Source: Candidatus Binatia bacterium
Lineage (GTDB): Bacteria; Vulcanimicrobiota; Vulcanimicrobiia; Vulcanimicrobiales; Vulcanimicrobiaceae
DNA: 64,000 nt
Direction of reading: 5' to 3'
Assembly: GCA_035544215.1 (NCBI GenBank)
Contig: DATKHY010000007.1
Coordinates: forward strand, 1,550,001 to 1,614,000
Numbering within the stretch: position 1 is the first letter of the stretch; each line of letters begins with the position of its first letter. Positions 9,081-14,099 of this stretch are shown here, one piece after another. The translations under genes were made by a program, and so were the position numbers. The notes under the pieces were generated by a model. It ran no database searches and had not been told where the DNA came from. It saw only the letters and a list, made by a program, of their open reading frames with translations.

Positions 9081-9603
9081 AGTACGGTTCGACGAACGGG
9101 CGCGCGAACCACGGGATCGTCGATAGAATCGCGTCGTCGATCGGCGCGTCATACGTCACCAAGTATGGCGCCAGGCGCGAGTCGTGCAGGCTCGCACGAA
9201 TGTCGGGCGAGAGCGGAAAAAAGAGCGACACGAAGAGCACGAGCCACAATAGGATCGCGCCCTTGGCGAAGCCGACGAACGCTCCGCCCAACGCGTTCCC
9301 GATCCCGAGTACCGGCAGCTTCGCGATGGCACCGAGCAGGCGCGCCACGATCAGCAGGGCCACATAGGTCAAGAGTCCGGTGCCGAACATGCCGATGACG
9401 TGCGCCGATCCGGGTCCGACCTTCGCGATGGCCTCGATTTGCGAATCCAGAAAGCCGTTGTAGAACCACGGCGCGACCAAAGCCGCGGTAACCGCGACCG
9501 CGCCGCCCAGCTCCGAGACGAATCCGCGCGTATATCCCTTGTACGTTGCGATACCGAGCACGATGATCATCACCGCGTCGGGCCAGGCAGCGCCGGCGGT
9601 CAC
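9061..9603 (-). CDS. CvpA-family membrane protein
   Basis: Four-helix inner-membrane protein of about 180 aa. The start WPDAVMIIVLGIATYKGYTRG matches the CvpA N-terminus (DxxII...GyrrGf). The family is linked to colicin V production and envelope homeostasis, and in many bacteria it follows pheT as here. The GTG at 9603 overlaps the pheT stop in GTGA and supplies the residues expected before the first helix, so it is preferred over the internal ATG. The gene ends the pheS-pheT transcription unit and overlaps the convergent aminotransferase. Confidence 0.85.
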   Translation of the reverse strand: MTAGAAWPDAVMIIVLGIATYKGYTRGFVSELGGAVAVTAALVAPWFYNGFLDSQIEAIAKVGPGSAHVIGMFGTGLLTYVALLIVARLLGAIAKLPVLGIGNALGGAFVGFAKGAILLWLVLFVSLFFPLSPDIRASLHDSRLAPYLVTYDAPIDDAILSTIPWFARPFVEPYFRRHHL

Positions 9604-11930
9604 GTTCGAATCGTCGCCCCCAACCGCTCGCCGAGAGCGACGAGGACAGCGGCGACCGCCGCATCGGCCTCCTCGTCGGTGATCGTCGCGTCGAAGCGCT
9701 GCAGCGTGACGCGCAGGGCGAGGCTCTTGTGCCCGTCCGCGACCTGCGGTCCGCGGTATTCGTCGAACGCATGGACGCCGGTGCTCAGCGGACCGGCCGC
9801 GGCGGCGACGGCCAGTTCGACCTCGTGCGCGCTCACGTCGTCGCGCACCACCAGCGCGATGTCGCGATACGTCGAGGGGAACCTGGACGGCACACGATAG
9901 TGCGGCACGGCGTACGCAGGCAGCGCCGCGACGTCGATGAGGCAGACGTACGCGTTGCCGGATAGGCCGAACGCTCGGCTTAAGCGCGGGTCGATGCACC
10001 CGAGCTCGCCCACCTCGCGGCCCTCGATCGTCAGCGCCGCGCGCTTGCCGGGATGGAACTCGACGCCGCCGCCCGGCGACGCGTCGACGGTTAGGCCCGT
10101 GATCTTTCGAACTAGCGCCTCGCAGTCGCCGCGCAGCCGCAGGAACGGTTCGTCGCGCCAGGGCCGCGCAGAATCGGCGTTTGCCGTAAAGCCGAATCCG
10201 AGCGCGGTCCGCTCGGCAACGCCGTCGCCGTCCGCGCGGAACACGTCGCCGATCTCGAAGATTCGAACCGCTTCGTAGGCGGCGAAGTACTCGAGCATCC
10301 CCGGAACCAGCGAGCCACGGAGAAAGCGTTGCTCTTCCGACAGCGGGTTGCGAACCTCGACCGAAGCGTCGCCGTACGCGGAGCCGCGCAGCGAGTGCGT
10401 GATGATCTCGCGATAGCCCAGCGCCTCGAGCGCGTGCGCCAGGCGACGCTCGCGATCGAACACCGCACTCGAGATCGCGTGCGGTGGCACCGACGGCTCG
10501 ACGGCCTCGATCCGGTCGTATCCCTCGATGCGCGCGGTTTCTTCGATTAGGTCGGCAGCGATCGTGAGGTCGCGGCGCCACGGCGGCGCCGTCACCGCGA
10601 GCGCGCCCGTCCCGGCCGGCTCCACGGCGCAGCCGAGCGCCTCGAGATGCTGGGCGACGCGTTCGCGAGGTATCGCGAGGCCCAATAGCCGCTCCACGTC
10701 GCGCAGCGGCAGGCGAATCGGCGCCGGCGTCATCAGCTCGGCTCCGAAGGCGTGAGGGGCATAGGCAGTCGCGCCGAGCTCGCTCAACAGCTGCGCAGCC
10801 CGCGCCGCGCCGAAGTCGGTCAGCGCCGGCGCCAGCGATTTCTCGTGACGAGCCGACGCCTCGGTGCGTAGGCCGAGCGCTCCGCTCATCCGGCGGACCC
10901 GCGGGCCGCTGAAGTTGGCGGCCTCGACGACGATCGAGTTCGTCGCCGTTGTTACCTCGCTGGATGCGCTCCCCATCAGACCCGCGAGGCCGAGCGGCGC
11001 GGTGTCGTCGGCGATCACGAGCGACGCCGGCGAGAGCGCGCGCGCGACGCCGTCGAGCGTCACGATCTTCTCGCCGTCGCGAGCGCTGCGGACCGTGAGC
11101 GTGCCGCCGTGGATGTGCGCGGCGTCGTAAAAGTGCAGCGGCTGCCCGGTCTCCAGCATCACGTAGTTCGAGACGTCCACCACGTTGTTGATCGGACGCT
11201 GGCCCGCCAGGGCAAGCCGGATGCGCATCCAGGCCGGCGCCGGCCGGACCTGCACGCCGTCGAAACGCTGCGCGACGAACCGGTGGCAATCCGTGGACTG
11301 CAGGACCACGCGCGGCGCCTCGCCCGGCGGCTCCGTTGCGTCGTACGAATCGAGTAGGGGCGGCAGCCGTAGCTCGACGCCGTAGGATGCGGCGAGCTCG
11401 CGCGCCAGCCCGACGATCGACAATGCGTCGGGCCGGTTCGCCGTGATCTCGACGTCCAGCACGTCGTGCCTGAGTCCAAAGAGCTCGACGGCGTCGACGC
11501 CGAGCGGAGTCCCCTGGCCAAGCTGCAGGATCCCGTCCTCGAACCACTCCGCGGGCAGCGCCAGCTCGCCGGCCGAGATCATCATTCCGTGCGAGACGAC
11601 GCCGCGCATCGTGCGCCGCTCGATCCTCAGCGTTGGGAGCTGAGCGCCGACGGTCGCCACGGCGATGACTTGGCCCGCGGCAACGTTGCTGGCCGCAGTG
11701 GCGATCGTCAGCGGCTCGGCAGCGCCGACGTCGACGCGCGCGACCTGCAGCCGATCGGCGTTGGGATGCTTCTCGAGCTCCGCGATGCGCCCGGTCACGA
11801 CCCCGCTGATCTCGGGGCGCCTCTCGACGTCGGCGACGGGAAAGCCGAGCATCGCTAAGCGGTGGGCGACGGCTTCGGCATCGGCCGGAATCGCGGCGTA
11901 TTCCCGCAGCCAGCTTATCGGTACGCGCAC
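9600..11930 (-). CDS. pheT: phenylalanine-tRNA ligase beta subunit
   Basis: Beta chain of the alpha2beta2 enzyme that charges tRNA-Phe. 776 aa in the usual order: N-terminal ISWLREYAAIP, tRNA-binding EMAP/OB domain (about 40-150, HPNADRLQVARVDVG), B3/B4 editing domain, B5 domain, catalytic-like core and C-terminal ferredoxin-like anticodon-binding domain (YRVPSRFPSTYRDIALVV). GTG start at 11930. It lies 13 bases downstream of pheS and overlaps cvpA by 4 bp, so it is cotranscribed with both and controlled by the pheS leader. Confidence 0.97.
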   Translation of the reverse strand: MRVPISWLREYAAIPADAEAVAHRLAMLGFPVADVERRPEISGVVTGRIAELEKHPNADRLQVARVDVGAAEPLTIATAASNVAAGQVIAVATVGAQLPTLRIERRTMRGVVSHGMMISAGELALPAEWFEDGILQLGQGTPLGVDAVELFGLRHDVLDVEITANRPDALSIVGLARELAASYGVELRLPPLLDSYDATEPPGEAPRVVLQSTDCHRFVAQRFDGVQVRPAPAWMRIRLALAGQRPINNVVDVSNYVMLETGQPLHFYDAAHIHGGTLTVRSARDGEKIVTLDGVARALSPASLVIADDTAPLGLAGLMGSASSEVTTATNSIVVEAANFSGPRVRRMSGALGLRTEASARHEKSLAPALTDFGAARAAQLLSELGATAYAPHAFGAELMTPAPIRLPLRDVERLLGLAIPRERVAQHLEALGCAVEPAGTGALAVTAPPWRRDLTIAADLIEETARIEGYDRIEAVEPSVPPHAISSAVFDRERRLAHALEALGYREIITHSLRGSAYGDASVEVRNPLSEEQRFLRGSLVPGMLEYFAAYEAVRIFEIGDVFRADGDGVAERTALGFGFTANADSARPWRDEPFLRLRGDCEALVRKITGLTVDASPGGGVEFHPGKRAALTIEGREVGELGCIDPRLSRAFGLSGNAYVCLIDVAALPAYAVPHYRVPSRFPSTYRDIALVVRDDVSAHEVELAVAAAAGPLSTGVHAFDEYRGPQVADGHKSLALRVTLQRFDATITDEEADAAVAAVLVALGERLGATIRT

Positions 11931-11943
11931 GCGTCGTGTCCGG

Positions 11944-12984
11944 TCAACTCAGTTGCGCGAGAAAATCGGGGTCGCTGTTGATGAAGCGGCGGATGTCGTC
12001 GACGCCGTAGCGCGGCAGGCCGAGCCGCTCGACGCCGAAGCCGAAGGCCCAACCGGAGTACACGTTGGGATCGTAACCGACCTCGCGCAGGACATTAGGA
12101 TGCACCATTCCGGATCCGCCCAGCTCGATCCACCCCGAGCCGCCGCAGAGGTTGCACCGCGGGCCCGAGGCATCGCCGTGGCACTTCGGGCAAGTCGTGT
12201 CCACCTCGGCGCTCGGCTCGGTGAACGGAAAGTACGACGGGCGAAAGCGAACGCGTTGCTCCGGGCCGAACAGCTCGCGGCACAATCCGGTCAGCATGCC
12301 CTTCAGATGTCCGAAATGGATGTCGTCGGCGACGAGCAATCCTTCGACCTGATGGAACTGAAAGAGATGCCGCGCGTCGACAGCGTCGCGGCGAAAGCAC
12401 TTTCCCGGCGCCACGATCGCGATCGGTGGGCGATGCTGCTGCATCGTGCGAATCTGCATCGGCGAAGTGTGCGGCCGCAGCAGCACGCCGTCGGTCAACC
12501 AGAACGAGTCGAAGCTCTCGCGTGCGGGATGGTCGCTCGGGATGTTCAGGGCGTCGAAGTTGTAATAATCCGGCTCCGCCTCGGGGCCGACGACGACCGC
12601 GAAGCCGTGCCGCATGAAGTAGTCGCAGCTTTCCTCGATAATCCGCCGCACCGGATGGATCGATCCGACCTGCGACGCGATCGCAGGGAACGTTGGGTCG
12701 ATCGCGGCGGCGAGCTCCGCGCCGACGGCGCTCGACTCCAAGTCCGCCTGCGCCGCCTGCAAGCGGCCTTCCATCATGGCGACGGCGTCGTTGATCGCCT
12801 TGCCCGCGCCAGGCCGCTCTGCCGGTGGAAGCGTGCCGATCGTGCGGCGCACTTTCGTTACCTCGCCGCTTCTGCCGAGGTAGGCGACGCGCACGTTTTC
12901 CAGCGCCTGCGTGGTGCCGACAGCCTTCGCATCGGCCGCGAAGCGCTGGAGCAAATCCGCCAATAGTTGCGTCAAATCGGTCAT
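11944..12984 (-). CDS. pheS: phenylalanine-tRNA ligase alpha subunit
   Basis: Catalytic subunit for Phe-tRNA synthesis, 346 aa. An N-terminal coiled coil (about 1-85) is followed by the class II core: motif 1 around HPVRRIIEE, motif 2 FRRDAVDARHLFQFHQVEG, and motif 3 WAFGFGVERLGLPRYG. A CxxC...CxxC zinc-ribbon-like insert (CPKC, CNLC) precedes GSGMVHP, as in many bacterial PheS. The ATG at 12984 gives the standard N-terminus; the frame open farther upstream (to 13035) runs through a terminator hairpin and is not coding. No Shine-Dalgarno is visible. The region just before the ATG is the U-tract of an intrinsic terminator. Confidence 0.97.
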   Translation of the reverse strand: MTDLTQLLADLLQRFAADAKAVGTTQALENVRVAYLGRSGEVTKVRRTIGTLPPAERPGAGKAINDAVAMMEGRLQAAQADLESSAVGAELAAAIDPTFPAIASQVGSIHPVRRIIEESCDYFMRHGFAVVVGPEAEPDYYNFDALNIPSDHPARESFDSFWLTDGVLLRPHTSPMQIRTMQQHRPPIAIVAPGKCFRRDAVDARHLFQFHQVEGLLVADDIHFGHLKGMLTGLCRELFGPEQRVRFRPSYFPFTEPSAEVDTTCPKCHGDASGPRCNLCGGSGWIELGGSGMVHPNVLREVGYDPNVYSGWAFGFGVERLGLPRYGVDDIRRFINSDPDFLAQLS

Positions 12985-12990
12985 CGTGTC

Positions 12991-13028
12991 AAAAACAAAA
13001 CGCCCGGTACTTTCATTTCTACCGGGCG
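12991..13028 (-). terminator. intrinsic terminator/attenuator directly upstream of pheS
   Basis: On the minus strand a perfect 9-bp stem (CGCCCGGTA at 13028-13020 pairing with TACCGGGCG at 13009-13001), a 10-nt loop and the tract TTTTGTTTTT. The tract ends six bases before the pheS ATG, so any pheS transcript starting at the promoter near 13240 must read through it. This is the geometry of an attenuator. No T-box consensus is present. Confidence 0.8.
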
Positions 13029-13074
13029 CTTCCAAAATCGGTTTTTGTAGCTATCTCTGCGAACGACTCCCAAT

Positions 13075-13176
13075 CTAGGTTGTCGCGGGCGCCGCGTGCA
13101 GCCTTCGGTAGGCCAGGTAAGCGTCGATCGAACCCGTTTGGGCGAAAAGCCTCCAGAAGAGATAGGACGTTGCCAT
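13075..13176 (-). CDS. YqzL-like small protein / candidate pheST leader ORF
   Basis: 33 codons with a clear Shine-Dalgarno (GAAGGAG, about eleven bases before ATG). The core YLFWRLFAQTGSIDAYLAYR resembles the YqzL-like family of Firmicutes (W-k-x-F-x-x-TG-x-I-x-AYL-x-Y), of unknown function. It is rich in aromatic residues (2 Phe, 1 Trp, 3 Tyr). It sits between the promoter and the terminator of pheS, so it may also act as an attenuation leader peptide. Its UAG lies about 46 bases before the terminator stem. Whether the peptide, its translation, or both matter is unresolved. Confidence 0.65.
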   Translation of the reverse strand: MATSYLFWRLFAQTGSIDAYLAYRRLHAAPATT

Positions 13177-13236
13177 GCGTTTGCTGTCTCCTTCTGAGCC
13201 GTCGGCTCCGGGGCGGCCCTGTCGCGGAATGGGCTG

Positions 13237-13245
13237 AGTATACCA
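13237..13245 (-). promoter_or_regulatory. extended -10 promoter for the YqzL-like ORF-pheS-pheT-cvpA unit
   Basis: Minus-strand TGGTATACT: a TATACT hexamer at 13242-13237 preceded by TG one base away. No good -35 is seen, as is usual for extended -10 promoters. Predicted start near 13230, about 55 bases before the small ORF. Confidence 0.55.
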
Positions 13246-13253
13246 TGTGACTT

Positions 13254-14099
13254 TTAGCACCGGTAGTCTTGACTTTTTGGGTCCGCACCACTCTCTTGAC
13301 AAGACCGCAGAGCGCTCCCTTGATGCACGAACGCGCGCCCCGCTTCGTACAGCGCGATCGATCCCGCGACCGCCGCGCTCAGGCTCTCGCTGGGGCCCTG
13401 CATAGGGATGGCGAGCACTCGCTCGCAGAGGGTCGCCCAGCGTCCCAGCCCGTGCCGCTCGTTGCCCACGACGATCGCGACCGGGCGCTCAAGTTGCCTG
13501 CTCTCCAGGCAGGCGCCGTGGGCCGCGAGCCCGACGAGATTCACCCCCGCGGTGGCCGCCGCCGCGGACAGCGCCGGCGGATCCGCGACCGAGATTGGCT
13601 GGCGAAAGATCGCTCCCATCGAGCCGCGCACGACCTTCGGGTTGTATGGGTCGACGCCCAGGCTTCCGAACGCGACGCCGTCGCAGCCGAACGCATCCGC
13701 CGAGCGCAGCAGCGTTCCCGCGTTGCCAGGATCGCTGACGTCGGCGAGGACCAAGATCAGCGCCGCGCCGGCCAGTAGTTCTTCGACGGGACGGAGCCGC
13801 AGCGGGGCGACGGCCACCACGCCGCTCGGCGTCCTCACGTCCGAAATGTGCGGGGCACTGCGTTCGTCCACGAGGAAGACCGTGATCCCGCGGGACTCTA
13901 GCTCGCCGAGCCGGGGCGTCGCGTCGTACATGGTCTCAGTGCAATAGATCTCTTCGACCGGAAAGCGACTCGCGAGGGCCTCTTCCAACATCGTAAGGCC
14001 TTCGAACGCAAAGCGCCCCTGCGCGCGGCGCCCCTTGGGCGATTGAAGCGCCCGTACGCCTGCGAGCCGGTCGGCGTGAACTCCGAGACGTACGGCCAC
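13254..14099 (-). CDS. SpoU/TrmH-family RNA 2'-O-methyltransferase
   Basis: SAM-dependent ribose methyltransferase of the SPOUT class, 281 aa. N-terminal substrate-binding domain (ALQSPKGRRAQGRFAFEG, about 15-85), then the knotted catalytic domain: motif 1 with DPGNAGTLLRSADAFG, motif 2 IVVGNERHGL, motif 3 IPMQGPSESLSAAVAGSIALYEA. Motif 3 reads SLSA where family members usually have SLNV. The rRNA or tRNA target is not known. The GTG start is one base after the preceding small membrane gene. In many bacteria a gene of this family sits between rplT and pheS, as here. Confidence 0.88.
   Translation of the reverse strand: MAVRLGVHADRLAGVRALQSPKGRRAQGRFAFEGLTMLEEALASRFPVEEIYCTETMYDATPRLGELESRGITVFLVDERSAPHISDVRTPSGVVAVAPLRLRPVEELLAGAALILVLADVSDPGNAGTLLRSADAFGCDGVAFGSLGVDPYNPKVVRGSMGAIFRQPISVADPPALSAAAATAGVNLVGLAAHGACLESRQLERPVAIVVGNERHGLGRWATLCERVLAIPMQGPSESLSAAVAGSIALYEAGRAFVHQGSALRSCQESGADPKSQDYRC

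Follow-up and report, generated by a model that had tools for sequence, protein, structure and literature searches.

A conserved yqzL gene and its predicted terminator precede pheST in Eremiobacterota: probably a terminator-gated operon with constitutive partial termination

Introduction

The locus described here raises the question of how the phenylalanine--tRNA ligase genes pheS and pheT are read when a short open reading frame (ORF) and a terminator-like hairpin stand directly before them. It lies on the minus strand of a 64,000-nucleotide stretch of DNA (hereafter the window) from a 3.23 Mb genome of the Eremiobacterota (Vulcanimicrobiota), a little-known phylum of soil bacteria. The arrangement recalls pheM-pheST of E. 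coli, in which a short ORF with Phe codons and then an intrinsic terminator likewise occur right before pheST, and in both cases the set is found downstream of rplT-linked genes. A terminator in the pheST leader is also shared with the T-box control of pheST in Firmicutes. An earlier note on this DNA proposed that pheST is controlled here through a leader ORF encoding a YqzL-type protein. The family (Pfam PF14006) includes YqzL of Bacillus subtilis, the gene of which lies in the era-yqzL-recO region; the Eremiobacterota gene differs in standing before pheST, with its own predicted promoter and terminator, and in encoding a shorter product (33 aa).

Organization of the locus

Read 5' to 3' along the minus strand, the order is a SpoU methylase gene, TGGTATACT, AAGGAG, yqzL, the hairpin, the T-tract, pheS and pheT, and the features have the following coordinates in the window:

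13254..14099, minus strand: upstream neighbour, SpoU-family rRNA 2'-O-methyltransferase (tsnR-like), from a profile match
13265..13273, minus strand: conserved GTCAAGACT element 5' of the promoter, from GTCAAG conservation
13237..13245, minus strand: predicted promoter of the yqzL(-pheST) transcript, an extended -10, from motif and conservation
13188..13193, minus strand: Shine-Dalgarno sequence AAGGAG of yqzL, kept in relatives as (A)AGGAG(A)
13075..13176, minus strand: yqzL, a 33-aa small protein of the YqzL family with a predicted two-helix hairpin, from Pfam, dN/dS and AlphaFold
12997..13032, minus strand: predicted intrinsic terminator hairpin, GAAGCGCCCGGTA-loop-TACCGGGCGTTTT, from folding and conservation
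12991..13000, minus strand: terminator T-tract TTTTGTTTTT, its 3' end 6 nt before the pheS ATG
11944..12984, minus strand: pheS, phenylalanine--tRNA ligase alpha, TIGR00468 above cut-off
9600..11930, minus strand: pheT, phenylalanine--tRNA ligase beta, from a profile match

The stop codon of the SpoU methylase gene is at 13256-13254, and TGGTATACT begins nine bases further on. The 33 codons of yqzL run from ATG at 13176 to TAG at 13077-13075 (MATSYLFWRLFAQTGSIDAYLAYRRLHAAPATT); the hairpin follows 42 nt after the stop, and six bases (GACACG) separate the T-tract from the pheS ATG at 12984. The extended -10, the 33-codon ORF with a good Shine-Dalgarno sequence and the 9-bp GC-rich stem whose T-tract stops six bases short of pheS had all been described in the earlier note, and each was recovered here at these positions. 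Specifically, the stem (CGCCCGGTA/TACCGGGCG) is perfect over 9 bp, can be extended to 13 pairs and encloses a loop of 10 nt.

The predicted promoter has an extended -10 and lacks a -35. The corresponding motif, TGnTA[TC]A[CAG]T, precedes yqzL in 82 of 97 relatives, and none of the 101 yqzL-pheS gaps contains it. The sequence GTCAAG was found no more than 130 nt upstream of the yqzL ORF in 92 of 101 relatives, and no second site with GTCAAG before such an extended -10 was found in the host genome. In the window GTCAAGA is repeated within 13265-13330 (minus strand), as TTGTCAAGAGAGT and, 27 nt on, as AAAGTCAAGACTACC, an arrangement conserved among genera; these repeats are a possible transcription-factor site. 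A generic sigma-70/terminator scanner run on the window listed neither the yqzL promoter nor the hairpin, the former because the extended -10 has no -35 and the latter because the 10-nt loop exceeds the scanner's limit of 8.

Conservation of yqzL before pheS

Of the 149 genomes surveyed in the phylum, 125 encode a YqzL-family protein, while the same search gave 0/151 genomes in Armatimonadota and 0/151 in Chloroflexota. Across the Eremiobacterota class to which the host belongs, yqzL was found 20-210 nt upstream of pheS in about 100 loci, and a same-strand yqzL lay directly 5' of pheS in virtually all genomes of the class for which sufficient upstream sequence is available; the handful of seeming exceptions go back to an ORF truncated by a contig end or an N gap, or overlooked by the search pattern. 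The analysis covered 101 distinct loci, the sequences of which are related so that counts are not independent, and the pheS start codons of relatives were inferred by alignment to the pheS of the window. Three deep-branching genomes carry a tandem pair of diverged yqzL ORFs before pheS (loci L192, L002 and L004 of genomes G006, G013 and G012, respectively). In one further locus (L201 of G007), minus-strand ORFs resembling HicA/HicB by eye are inserted between yqzL and pheS, with the pheS-proximal terminator kept and GCAGGGTTTTTTC on either side of the insert.

This class-wide retention could reflect a regulatory need. It may also be plain synteny, since the upstream tsnR appears to be retained in the class too. 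The position of yqzL one terminator before pheST provides a concrete, testable functional neighbourhood for YqzL. A search of a full-text literature library for YqzL found no dedicated or useful study and a single passing mention.

YqzL is under selection as a protein

The assignment of the ORF to the YqzL type, made earlier by inspection, was borne out by Pfam: the product scored 29.5 bits against PF14006 (cut-off 27), passing the curated threshold, and is the only copy in the host genome. The ORF is 32-33 aa long in 93 of 101 loci. Residues F7, W8, F11, T14, G15, S16, A19, Y20, L21 and Y23 are invariant or near-invariant across the 101 loci, and conservation spans FWKLFxxTGSIxAYLxYR, beyond the Phe codons alone. 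The dN/dS of the yqzL core was 0.119 compared with 0.225 for the start of pheS, and the synonymous divergence of the two was equal (0.54 and 0.55, respectively), which argues against any extra RNA constraint within the yqzL ORF. The yqzL ORF is under selection as a protein. An AlphaFold model of moderate confidence (mean pLDDT 76) gave a two-helix hairpin, which is consistent with a folded protein more than with a disposable leader peptide. Sequence and fold searches of the PDB with YqzL gave no meaningful match.

A conserved predicted terminator between yqzL and pheS

Under a fixed rule, no strong intrinsic terminator other than this hairpin was found on either strand of the 64-kb window. A sample of 400 kb from the host genome contained six, i.e. 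about one per 67 kb, counted by a similar rule with a slightly lower stem score cut-off and a slightly different T-tract test. A hairpin follows yqzL in nearly all of the approximately 100 relatives, with 67 distinct hairpins and compensatory changes in the stem (e.g. L029, L142 and L161), and at least five T within the 9 nt after the stem were present in 82 of 101. The GC-rich hairpin with a U-tract, conserved with compensatory changes, is as expected of an intrinsic terminator and is predicted to be one. The stem sequence itself was unusually constant (CGCC[CT]GG in 73/101 loci), and many relatives carry a purine-rich element between the yqzL stop codon and the hairpin. In one genome (G035, L163) the terminator has been lost while yqzL-pheS remains, and in some genera (e.g. 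g37, L147/L179) the hairpin is kept with a poor U-tract.

Leader-peptide attenuation is not supported

In classical attenuation, a shortage of charged tRNA-Phe would stall the ribosome at F7/F11, an antiterminator would form and pheST would be read. The order, a promoter followed by a short ORF in which aromatic codons cluster (FWxLF), a terminator and pheS, is that of E. coli pheM-pheST, the intrinsic terminator expected between leader ORF and structural gene is there and conserved, and the Phe positions are kept in 98/101 (F7) and 101/101 (F11) relatives. However, the 5' arm of the terminator lacks an upstream partner beyond chance. This was tested by folding the stretch of RNA between the stalled ribosome and the terminator hairpin, up to and including the loop, and scoring the upstream pairing of the 5' arm against dinucleotide shuffles, with E. 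coli pheM, trpL, hisL, thrL, leuL, ilvL and pheL as positive controls. All seven controls were detected, with z values from -1.7 to -4.2 (mean -2.9; -2.0 for pheM), whereas 98 Eremiobacterota leaders gave mean z values of +0.04, +0.06 and +0.09 for stalling at F7, F11 and Y23, respectively, and +0.25 for the whole leader, indicating no detectable antiterminator. When equilibrium structures were computed with the ribosome placed at various points, the terminator probability was ~1 in each position modelled. A segment of the yqzL ORF in the window, CTACCGaaGGC, can be paired by eye with the terminator arm into a helix resembling an antiterminator; it is not conserved, and the z value for the window was only -0.5.

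Conservation at the protein level also speaks against stalling as the role of the ORF, since it extends far past the Phe residues while synonymous sites are free. The 2-3 Phe codons of the ORF, together with Trp and Tyr codons, occur in similar numbers in yqzL copies away from pheST (2.4 Phe per peptide in linked and 2.1 in unlinked copies). E. coli pheM, in contrast, has a detectable antiterminator and encodes a 14-aa peptide, whereas the ORF here belongs to a conserved protein family that is also found apart from pheST. Unlike in Firmicutes, neither a T-box nor any other Rfam family was matched, with no T-box even at an E value of 10. Taken together, classical attenuation is highly improbable at this locus. 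The case illustrates a trap for annotation by eye, in that an ORF and a terminator ahead of an aminoacyl-tRNA synthetase gene can mimic an attenuator without its defining antiterminator.

The earlier note had itself seen no T-box and no obvious antiterminator, in agreement with the searches above, and had suggested aligning the region across relatives. The comparison brought out the conserved ORF in about 100 loci, and no alternative partner for the terminator arm beyond chance. The note's proposal is supported as regards a YqzL-type leader ORF and a conserved terminator between it and pheS, and is not supported as regards attenuation on an aromatic-rich leader peptide. A pheS promoter 3' of the hairpin, or loss of hairpin and ORF in close relatives, had been named as grounds for abandoning it; since the extended -10 is absent from the gaps and both hairpin and ORF persist, some terminator-gated link to pheST stands.

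How pheST may be read

The yqzL-pheST set is probably a terminator-gated operon with constitutive partial termination. In the explanation that we favour, with a probability of a little over one half, yqzL is a small-protein gene in its own right that ends in a terminator, and transcription reaches pheST mostly by read-through. The gene would be transcribed from its own conserved, strong extended -10 promoter, and the terminator would give a short mRNA of ~230 nt; as the terminator abuts pheS in the host's class, the constitutive partial terminator would set a high yqzL:pheST transcript ratio, with no leader-peptide-stalling switch. In the window the perfect stem lies just 12 nt from the pheS ATG, too close for a normal pheS promoter to fit in between; because of this short distance and of the lack of an extended -10 between yqzL and pheS, pheST is read through the terminator as far as the sequence tells, and is apparently made only when RNA polymerase passes it. 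Both the read-through and the expression levels of pheST are thus predictions from spacing and motifs. A precedent is the rpsU-dnaG-rpoD operon of E. coli, in which an intrinsic terminator after rpsU, inside the operon, sets gene ratios. In both cases a terminator follows a small, highly conserved gene, and the genes beyond it are reached by partial read-through; the genes differ, and here the read-through is deduced from spacing. Three observations count against constitutive partial termination. The class-wide retention of the arrangement could point to a regulatory need, unless it is plain synteny, the poor U-tracts in some genera are unexpected for a pure terminator, and pheS has no evident Shine-Dalgarno sequence, with the T-tract and GACACG alone between stem and ATG (12984-13000), so that its translation also requires an explanation.

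The retention of hairpins where the U-tract is poor would fit with regulated read-through, in which YqzL (also as a nascent chain), PheRS or another factor binds the hairpin or leader and alters termination, so that yqzL-pheST is autoregulated. This would also be in keeping with the conservation of the stem sequence besides its pairing, with the purine-rich element before the hairpin and with an ORF of fixed length, short enough to sit mostly within the ribosome tunnel. Yet no conserved element was found to covary with the hairpin, YqzL occurs far from pheST with a different terminator stem, and no resemblance of YqzL in structure or sequence to known RNA-binding proteins was detected, so that regulated read-through is considered unlikely, if with a real chance of being correct. 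Its more specific form, in which YqzL acts in trans or as a nascent chain to control read-through of its own terminator and so sets PheRS levels class-wide, is rather doubtful; if true, PheRS levels would be set by a conserved 33-aa protein instead of by codon stalling, a T-box or a riboswitch. Alternatively, the hairpin might end the yqzL transcript only, with pheST transcribed from a separate promoter, perhaps a leaderless one, that overlaps the hairpin, as hinted at by several genera in which the loop reads TATAAT, TATAGT or TAGAAT after CCCGG (TATAAT/TATAGT in e.g. L134, L132 and L129). This loop -10 is not conserved, however (the window reads TAGAAA), and it has no evident -35; together with the short stem-to-ATG distance and the gaps devoid of an extended -10, this makes a separate pheST promoter improbable overall, though one may exist in the species with such a loop.

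yqzL copies apart from pheST

In deep-branching genomes that have pheST at another place or of a different type, unlinked yqzL copies follow tsnR-, nth- or sucD-like genes (named by eye from translations). A terminator was found no more than 130 nt downstream in 8-9 of 15 such loci, compared with 3-12% of random windows, which favours a terminator that belongs to yqzL and speaks against attenuation. For example, genome G005 has the order tsnR-yqzL-terminator-cvpA, without pheST and with a differing terminator stem. In G001-G005 and G014, PheS belongs to another, longer type (open frame of ~515-570 aa) whose similarity is confined to the C-terminal half (36-38% identity), which suggests that in these deep lineages the synthetase was replaced while yqzL stayed.
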